A DNA stretch of 64,000 nt from Psychrobacter raelei (GTDB lineage Bacteria; Pseudomonadota; Gammaproteobacteria; Pseudomonadales; Moraxellaceae): NCBI RefSeq assembly GCF_022631235.3, contig NZ_CP093310.2, positions 1,054,001-1,118,000 on the forward strand. The letters run 5' to 3'. The notes under the pieces were generated by a model that was not told where the DNA came from, searched no databases, and saw only the letters and a program-made list of their open reading frames with translations. Positions within the stretch are counted from its first letter, which is position 1. Every line of letters starts with the position of its first letter. This document shows positions 7,479 to 9,609 of the stretch, in pieces. Both the position numbers and the translations under genes were made by a program.

Positions 7479-7509
7479 GCGCTAACGACATCTCGTTAGC
7501 GCTTTTTTT
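7479..7509 (+). terminator. Intrinsic terminator of glnS
   Basis: A perfect 10-base stem GCGCTAACGA (7479-7488) pairs with TCGTTAGCGC (7493-7502) around a four-base loop. Seven T follow. Confidence 0.92.
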
Positions 7510-7541: not shown

Positions 7542-9176
7542 TTACCCTAAACTATCAGTACCATACTGTTTGCGCTTGTTGCTGAAGAATCTGTCCAATC
7601 TGTCCATAGCATCTTCTAAATCTAATAAGTTAGGTAAGAACACCACACGGAAGTGATCGGGCGCATCCCAGTTAAAGCCCGTGCCTTGTACCATCAGCAC
7701 TTTTTCTTCGATTAATAAGTCCATCATAAACTGCATGTCATCTTCAATAGGGTAGATGCTGCGGTCAATTTTTGGGAAGCAATAAAAGGCGCCTTGCGGC
7801 ATGGTGCATGATATACCTGGGATGGCATTTAGACGCTCTACCGCCAATTGGCGCTGCTTGTATAAGCGGCCTGTTTCGGCCGTTAAGTCCTGCATGCTTT
7901 GATAGCCGCCTACTGCAGTTTGGATGGCATGCTGAGCTGGCACGTTAGCACACAAGCGCATCGAGGCGAGCATGTCTAGGCCTTCAATGAAGTCGCTGGC
8001 ATGTTCTTTATTACCAGAGAGCATAAGCCACCCCGCTCTAAAGCCGGCAATCCTATGTGACTTTGACAGACCATTGTAGGTCAAAATCAGGACATCTTGC
8101 GCTAAGGTACACATGGGGGTGTGCACTGCATTATCATATAAAATGCGGTCGTAGATTTCATCTGCCATCAGGACTAAATTGTACTCACGTGCCAGATCGA
8201 TAATTTGTAGCAGCACATCGTTAGAGTAGAGCGCGCCGGTGGGGTTATTGGGGTTAATCACCACTATGCCACGGGTCTTATCGGTAATTTTTGCACGGAT
8301 ATCTTCAATATCAGGCTGCCAGTTATTCTCCTCATTACAGCGATAATGTACCGCGGTGCCGCCAGCAAGATTGGCTGCGGCTGTCCATAGTGGATAATCT
8401 GGCATAGGGATAAGCACCTCATCACCATCATTCATCAAAGCTTGCATGGTCATTACGATAAGCTCTGATACGCCATTGCCTAGGTACACATCACGCACAT
8501 CAACCGCTGATAACAGCCCCTTTGATTGGTAATATTGTAAGACGGCCTTTCGGGCTGAGAAAATACCTTGTGAGTCTGAATAACCGGTCGCATTGTGCAA
8601 ATTTAGCGCCACATCTTGCAAGATTTCATGCGGGGCATCTAAGTTAAATGGCGCGGGGTTGCCGACATTAAGCTTTAAGATGCGCTGACCTTGAGCTTCC
8701 ATTTGCATTGCTGTTTTAAGGAGCGGGCCTCGGATGTCGTAGCAAACGTTTTGTAATTTATCAGATTTTTTTAAGGGCTTACGGGTAGGGGCGGTGTTTT
8801 TCATGATGCTGTTACTCGTACTTAGGTGAGAAGAAGGGGTCTGGATAACGCTTGGAGTAGCATTGGTGCTTGAGTTAATAGAGGGTGGGTTACTGGCAAG
8901 GCTTGAGCGTTGAGTACTATTATCTGGCTCAGCGTTGTCTGCTGGCTCACCACGCAATAAATAGCCCTCAGAGCAGCCTAAGATATGAGCCAAAGCGGGC
9001 AGCTTGGAGGAGACAATCCCATTTATGCCACGTTCCCAATTAGATATGGCGCCACGACTGACTTTAGAACCGGACGCTGTCATTGCCGCAGCCAATTGCT
9101 CAGCCGTAAGACCCTTGGCCTTACGCAGCTTACTGAGCCTTGCGCCTTGTGCCTTAAATTCAGATTGCTCACTCAT
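7542..9176 (-). CDS. alaA: Xre-type HTH domain fused to alanine aminotransferase AlaA
   Basis: A 544-residue two-part protein. Residues about 12-72 are a Cro/Xre helix-turn-helix (KLRKAKGLTAEQLAAAM, then SRGAISNWERG). Residues 76-136 are a Ser/Thr/Asn-rich linker. From about 138 on the sequence closely follows E. coli AlaA, the glutamate-pyruvate aminotransferase: NVCYDIRGP, KLNVGNPAPF, NPNNPTGA and SLRLCANVPAQHA-like segments. The PLP lysine is Lys372 in LSKSHRIAGFRAGW. It is not a MocR/GntR-type fusion, because the DNA-binding part is Xre-like rather than winged-helix. The natural inference is that the enzyme reports on alanine or pyruvate and controls its own gene; two inverted repeats sit on its promoter. 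An internal Met125 could start an enzyme-only form but has no clear ribosome site. Confidence 0.9.
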   Translation of the reverse strand: MSEQSEFKAQGARLSKLRKAKGLTAEQLAAAMTASGSKVSRGAISNWERGINGIVSSKLPALAHILGCSEGYLLRGEPADNAEPDNSTQRSSLASNPPSINSSTNATPSVIQTPSSHLSTSNSIMKNTAPTRKPLKKSDKLQNVCYDIRGPLLKTAMQMEAQGQRILKLNVGNPAPFNLDAPHEILQDVALNLHNATGYSDSQGIFSARKAVLQYYQSKGLLSAVDVRDVYLGNGVSELIVMTMQALMNDGDEVLIPMPDYPLWTAAANLAGGTAVHYRCNEENNWQPDIEDIRAKITDKTRGIVVINPNNPTGALYSNDVLLQIIDLAREYNLVLMADEIYDRILYDNAVHTPMCTLAQDVLILTYNGLSKSHRIAGFRAGWLMLSGNKEHASDFIEGLDMLASMRLCANVPAQHAIQTAVGGYQSMQDLTAETGRLYKQRQLAVERLNAIPGISCTMPQGAFYCFPKIDRSIYPIEDDMQFMMDLLIEEKVLMVQGTGFNWDAPDHFRVVFLPNLLDLEDAMDRLDRFFSNKRKQYGTDSLG

Positions 9177-9261
9177 AACGGCTACTCTTTGTTGTTTGGT
9201 TTATATGCTTTTAGCCACCGTCTAACCTAGGTGTGCTAAACAATTTAATGTAGTAATTCTC

Positions 9262-9284
9262 TAATGCAAGATATTATTGCATTA
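9262..9284. promoter_or_regulatory. Candidate operator 1 of the Xre-alaA gene
   Basis: Inverted repeat TAATGCAA (9262-9269) / TTGCATTA (9277-9284) with a seven-base spacer. It covers the -10 box of the minus-strand promoter. The half-site AATGCAAG recurs in the second repeat 45 bases upstream. That the fused Xre domain binds here is an inference. Confidence 0.6.
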
Positions 9285-9299
9285 AATGGTTTTTTTCAA
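9271..9299 (-). promoter_or_regulatory. Promoter of the Xre-alaA gene
   Basis: Read on the minus strand, TTGAAA (9294-9299) and TAATAT (9271-9276) are separated by exactly 17 bases and resemble the sigma-70 consensus. The transcript would start near 9264 and have a leader of about 88 bases before the ATG at 9176. Confidence 0.6.
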
Positions 9300-9307
9300 T
9301 GGGCTAT

Positions 9308-9328
9308 AATGCAAGTAAATCTTGCATT
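9308..9328. promoter_or_regulatory. Candidate operator 2 of the Xre-alaA gene
   Basis: Inverted repeat AATGCAAG (9308-9315) / CTTGCATT (9321-9328) with a five-base spacer, just upstream of the -35 box. It shares its half-site with operator 1; centre-to-centre distance is 45 bases, roughly four helical turns, which would suit two dimers on one face. The rest of the gap (9329-9609) shows nothing further. Confidence 0.6.
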
Positions 9329-9609
9329 GTGAGAGGTGCGTTTGAAATCACAGAGGCGTCTAATAACAGGTTGTTTGTAAAAAGTATTTAAAATTAATGG
9401 CTTAACTATGATTAATGAGCCAGGCGCGTCTGCTAAAGGTATCCTATTGTCACGCCTATCTTTGATGATAAGAAGTTTTATGATTATGTAATCAAGCTCT
9501 ATATTTGGTAAGATTAGGCAAAGGGGTGATTGAAGTTATCAAGGATGCCCGCATAATTGACAGTAGCGCACTCAAATAACTGATGATAAAAATACCAAAA
9601 GGACATGTT

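Follow-up and report, generated by a model that had tools for sequence, protein, structure and literature searches.

The alanine aminotransferase AlaA of Psychrobacter raelei carries a DNA-binding head of the Xre family, and the arrangement of operator-like palindromes on the alaA promoter makes it likely that the fusion protein represses its own gene. The gene lies in a 64,000-nucleotide stretch of the chromosome, the whole of which we call the window, and the features discussed below are collected in Table 1. We propose that the AlaA homodimer would bring two Xre heads together, and that the heads would bind one palindrome lying over the -10 box and a second one upstream of the -35 box. The bound heads would block RNA polymerase and so hold alaA expression at a set level, while substrate occupancy, most simply by high L-alanine, may alter the pairing of the two heads and hence DNA binding, giving end-product feedback; a head-less enzyme would probably also be made, from an in-frame ATG that is conserved close to where AlaA originally started. 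A sequence-only reading of the same DNA had already suggested that the protein regulates its own gene, an idea that now has good comparative support from palindromes that sit on the alaA promoter, are conserved and are exchanged together with the head. The palindromes are an addition to what that reading had observed, and the finding is larger than first noted.

Table 1. Features of the xre-alaA locus, in window coordinates.
Feature	Position	Strand	Basis
xre-alaA fusion gene, 544 aa	7542..9176	-	ORF reading, Pfam and 4cvq match; ATG start at 9176
HTH_3 (Xre) DNA-binding domain, residues 15-73	8958..9134	-	Pfam E 9e-8
Variable polar linker, residues 78-131	8784..8945	-	low conservation
AlaA aminotransferase core, residues 132-533	7578..8783	-	PDB 4cvq E 2e-174
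Plug residues Y146, I148, R149 of the mobile N-terminal arm	8730..8741	-	conservation; role from PMC4094517
Codon of PLP lysine K372 (E. coli Lys240)	8061..8063	-	Lys in 147/147 aligned loci
Met125, in-frame ATG close to the ancestral start of AlaA; candidate internal start of translation	8802..8804	-	
Proximal operator-like palindrome AATGCAA-N7-TTGCATT, over the -10 box	9263..9283	.	
Distal operator-like palindrome AATGCAA-N7-TTGCATT; its start and the proximal start lie 45 bp apart	9308..9328	.	
Promoter-like TTGAAA-17-TAATAT (-35 at 9299-9294, -10 at 9276-9271)	9271..9299	-	consensus scan and aligned loci
Terminator-like hairpin 3' of alaA, between alaA and glnS	7479..7502	-	consensus scan only

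An Xre head on a complete AlaA enzyme

The fusion had been read from the letters as an Xre-type domain, a polar linker of 60 residues and a complete AlaA with its PLP lysine at position 372, and this description holds up. The HTH_3 match to residues 15-73 scores 32.4 bits (E 9e-8; curated cut-off 23), HTH_3, HTH_31 and HTH_19 being the Pfam domains listed for the head, and Aminotran_1_2 covers residues 166-516 (E 1e-58). Residues 27-427 of E. coli AlaA (PDB 4cvq) align with residues 132-533 of the fusion (E 2e-174), K372 falls at the position of the PLP lysine, and the linker, at about 54 residues (78-131), is close to the length first given. A Pfam search of the fusion protein at E 0.001 returned no GntR winged-helix head.

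The active-site residues described for E. coli AlaA, namely Lys240, Arg378, Asn179, Asp207, Tyr210, Tyr129, Tyr15, Ile17 and Arg18 (PMC4094517), have as their counterparts, in the same order, K372, R510, N311, D339, Y342, Y261, Y146, I148 and R149, and all nine of these catalytic and plug residues are invariant in the alignment of 47/47 Psychrobacter loci. The core of the fusion is an AlaA orthologue that has kept its catalytic residues, and transaminase activity is predicted for it. It is the only AlaA found in the source genome, where the next match has 25% identity. The fusion may explain how alanine synthesis is controlled in Psychrobacter, Moraxella and Acinetobacter, where the product names among those listed are only aminotransferase or alanine-synthesizing transaminase. 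One g5 genome (G118) has a second, divergent AlaA copy (L097) in which Arg replaces the plug Tyr. A literature search confined to open-licence papers (titles and starts of abstracts) found none that describes AlaA with a DNA-binding head, and the main text of a study of the Acinetobacter regulome (PMC5382811) has 0 occurrences of aminotransferase or AlaA.

The Xre fusion is conserved across Psychrobacter and is also present in Moraxella and three further genera. All 100 genomes of the same genus that were searched match the fusion protein, the best match starting at residue 1-9 in 96, including one (G076) in which the fusion gene is split into two frames; in G030, G034, G054 and G059 it begins at residue 85-119, within open frames of 566-618 aa. 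At the family level 148 of 149 genomes match the protein, with or without the head, and a one-contig g10 (Moraxella-type) genome rated 100% complete (G146) has no match to the fusion protein at E 0.001. Residues 1-135 used as the query found 916 proteins, and an aminotransferase domain is also present in all 120 among the matches listed. The N-terminal head was read in 147 loci, a chosen set and not a random sample: 74 carry an Xre head, 27 a StbA-like head, five the g13 type, three the Cro type and two the g11 type, and 36 have no recognised head. Among the group labels used here, g1 is Psychrobacter, g7 Moraxella atlantae and g10 Moraxella (M. oblonga), while g8 and g16 correspond to assemblies labelled no further than Pseudomonadota or Moraxellaceae bacterium; g15 is assigned to Acinetobacter on the strength of a 55-residue fragment that bears that name and is identical to part of the L081 head.

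A degenerate HTH in the orthologues, which the sequence-only reading had named as the sign that would speak against regulation, is not what the alignment contains. Across 75 rows, made up of the window and the 74 Xre loci with the window's own copy (L012) included, the mean top-residue fraction is 0.81 for HTH residues 12-72 and 0.21 for linker residues 78-126, and S40, N46, W47, E48, N52, G53 and I54 are invariant. Top-residue fractions along the recognition helix are 1.0 for S40, 0.99 for R41, 0.88 for G42, 0.97 for A43, 0.99 for I44 and 1.0 for N46. Both the contrast between HTH and linker and the seven invariant residues tell against the head being a non-functional leftover of gene fusion, a reading that we consider very improbable even though 9 of the 33 Acinetobacter (g15) loci read have no head, so that it is dispensable there. 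By analogy with the 434 repressor, position 42 would be one of the residues of this helix that face the DNA. Gly occupies it in the rows of Psychrobacter and of Moraxella type, Ala in those shown for g7, g8, g14 and g16.

Operator-like palindromes, promoter and internal start

In its own genome the palindrome AATGCAA-N7-TTGCATT occurs exactly at two places, both upstream of alaA, and no further copy is found at one mismatch or fewer; at two mismatches there are nine more places, compared with eight for the reversed control. Within one mismatch the palindrome is matched by 95 of 100 same-genus genomes, a whole-genome count that is weak because by our count the reversed control also matches in 49 genomes, and it is position and conservation that carry the argument. 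The core TGCAAG-N5-CTTGCA, at one mismatch or fewer, precedes alaA in 46 of the 47 Psychrobacter loci, the 47th being cut by a contig end, and in 17 of 18 Moraxella-type loci, while 0.2-0.3% of dinucleotide shuffles match at this threshold. By the same measure the core is present in 3/6 g7 loci and in 0/3 Xre loci of g8, g14 and g16. Four of the six g7 sites have TGTAAG in one arm and CTTGC in the other, and one more has TGTAAG with a poorer arm; the change at position 42 of the head and the change in the g7 sites may represent recognition covariation. In 17 of 18 g10 (Moraxella-type) genomes TTGCAA-N7-TTGCAA occurs 1-6 times each, against 0-1 for the reversed pattern; this may reflect additional targets of the Moraxella head or another role for the motif.

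Two sites at one mismatch or fewer precede alaA in 72 of the 77 usable loci of named genomes (those with at least 250 bp upstream, out of 80, leaving out L235, which was not parsed, and L160 and L174, which were too short); the loci without two sites are L159, L162, L167, L213 and L238. When the 72 loci are aligned, TAATAT within the proximal site is kept in 68-72 of them at each position, and the TTG of the -35 box, 17 bp before TAATAT, in 71-72. The consensus promoter scan is weak alone, since it finds nine sites in the stretch where shuffled sequence gives 4.7. In 42 of the 72 loci, with flanks less than 70% alike, TGCAATAATATCTTGCA shows no variation at 16 of its 17 positions, a count for which the arms were part of the row selection and the spacer was not. 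The distance from site to site ranges from 30 to 92 bp, with a mode of 64 bp (24 of 72 loci).

These positions also bear on the sign of regulation. Activation by the heads, for example from the distal site, would suit the window, where the distal palindrome lies just upstream of the -35 box, and would suit the variable distance between the sites; the most conserved site, however, lies over the -10 box, where repressors usually bind, and we regard activation as unlikely and repression as the better account. Across window 9177-9582, alaA lies head to head with a gene named by eye as msrB-like, whose start is about 255 bp from the palindromes, and an effect on that gene is possible. At the other end of alaA, the terminator-like hairpin is the only one in the stretch, against a shuffle mean of 2.4, which by count is not above chance.

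A further feature concerns the junction with the enzyme. In 72 of the 74 Xre fusions the 14 codons ahead of the core include an in-frame ATG, which in 50 of them stands five codons ahead of it; judged by how dense Met is in the remainder of the linker, 11% would be expected. The other two frames have ATGs in 21/74 and 0/74. The signal is weak in the StbA-like fusions (17/27, 72% expected), and an in-frame ATG is present in 5/5 fusions of the g13 type, 2/2 of the g11 type and 1/3 of the Cro type. This conserved ATG near the old AlaA start suggests that an additional, head-less enzyme may be made.

Other heads and other promoter motifs

In other lineages of the order, AlaA seems to have acquired different DNA-binding heads. 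In Acinetobacter and g9 the head is StbA-like, judged by sequence and fold similarity to the DNA-binding domain of StbA, and the promoters of these loci contain AAGTAAGCA direct repeats: at least two copies in 24 of 27 StbA-headed loci (0.5% of shuffles) and at least one in 27/27, compared with 0/9 head-less g15 (Acinetobacter) loci. The paired repeat lies before alaA in all 16 head-bearing genomes scanned; the nine head-less Acinetobacter genomes have no paired repeat before alaA, and four of them have a one-mismatch match elsewhere. StbA of plasmid R388 is described as binding 9-bp direct repeats spaced by two (PMC3098194). PMC9723621 concerns ArdK and not StbA. A repeat-like match kept in nine Acinetobacter genomes (L239-L247) falls within a 920-aa coding sequence, and its conservation is that of the encoded protein. 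For one protein (P0121) the precomputed annotation of the StbA-like head is PF28167.1, a family absent from the Pfam results for similar heads in this analysis.

The g13 head is divergent and resembles a lambda-repressor-type HTH by fold, the match being weak. The motif ATAGG-N6-CCTAT occurs once and no more in seven of nine g13 genomes, in front of alaA, and the head itself was read in five of these seven; the exceptions, G147 and G162, are 82% and 59% complete, and the search for AlaA in them gave either a partial match or none that is close. Family f25 carries a P22-Cro-like head (Pfam E 4e-7 with 30.0 bits, the cut-off being 30.2; PHROG 1e-9), and GTCAAT-N4-ATTGAC occurs in two of three f25 loci, a count without a control in which the two are close relatives. 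For the g11 head (L072 and L137; MYFVNKKN type), a fifth extension, no convincing match was obtained in Pfam, PHROGs or PDB sequences, and neither a fold nor an operator was found.

Since the operators are inferred from position and conservation only, the palindromes could be sites of another alaA regulator, the fused head doing something else, such as tethering. We think this improbable: the motif changes with the head (Xre goes with a palindrome, the StbA-like head with direct repeats and the g13 head with a different palindrome), the nine head-less Acinetobacter have no repeat, and the sites are at alaA only, both in the own genome (one mismatch) and in seven g13 genomes. Self-repression by the fused heads remains our preferred reading.

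How often it arose was addressed with trees. The first, built by a quick method and with many weak branches, covers 93 of the 147 loci, after removal of near copies (38 of 47 Psychrobacter and 16 others), and needs 12 changes among six labels (Xre 2, StbA 7, plain 10, and one each for g13, g11 and Cro). The second is a DNA tree of 36 Acinetobacter/g9 loci, whose bootstraps yield 5-7 changes and one firmly supported independent pair; the association of head and repeat in Acinetobacter is perfect in counts, yet the trees support only that one independent pair. Neither tree tells gain of a head from loss. The best reading of these comparisons is that AlaA became its own repressor several times. 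On balance we favour a joint reading, in which AlaA would have been made its own repressor at least four separate times within one order through unrelated or very distant heads (Xre, StbA-like, a divergent lambda-repressor-like HTH and P22-Cro-like), each with its own operator at the alaA promoter; head and operator would have been lost together in some Acinetobacter, and the gene of the Xre lineage would yield two products, a long form that represses and, from the conserved internal start, an enzyme without the head. If true, this would be a replicated natural experiment in turning an enzyme into its own regulator, in which a single enzyme has several heads with matching operators and some lineages have neither head nor operator, and it would make substrate sensing versus sensing of the enzyme's own amount directly testable with homologous pairs.

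Substrate sensing and comparison with known systems

In E. coli AlaA the N-terminal arm is part of the dimer interface and acts as a plug over the active site (PMC4094517). Substrate sensing by the fusion enzyme is plausible because the head is joined to this mobile arm, and we put it forward tentatively, as something close to an even call. Self-repression might also be plain level control, with repression following the AlaA concentration and showing no substrate response, which we judge possible though somewhat doubtful. The operator and head sequences fit such level control equally well, and the long, unconserved linker disfavours tight coupling between active site and head; on the other side, the head sits at the substrate-responsive arm (PMC4094517), and repeated fusion to one enzyme suggests a gain from physical coupling.

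E. coli AlaA (4cvq) shares with the fusion an orthologous core and all tested active-site residues, but its chain has no part matching the HTH or the linker. StbA of plasmid R388 (PDB 7pc1) has a DNA-binding domain similar in sequence and fold to the Acinetobacter-type head, which is, however, a domain of a chromosomal enzyme and not a plasmid stability protein. The MocR/GabR regulators are alike in that a DNA-binding head is attached to an aminotransferase domain of fold type I through which the dimer forms (EnuR, PMC8739950), but they are a sub-family of GntR-type factors whose aminotransferase domain is said to lack activity (PMC8739950), whereas here an HTH_3 head is joined to an AlaA orthologue. 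Because the head is of another family and the AlaA orthologue has its catalytic residues, the fusion is not a MocR, in agreement with the contrast drawn from the sequence at the outset. The operators suggest that it may regulate as a trigger enzyme. The head of PutA is a ribbon-helix-helix. PutA resembles the fusion as a metabolic enzyme that directly represses its own operon (PMC6978683), although enzyme and head are both different and, in the AlaA fusions, the head varies between related lineages while the enzyme stays constant. Most likely, the fusion works like the PutA-type self-repressing enzymes.
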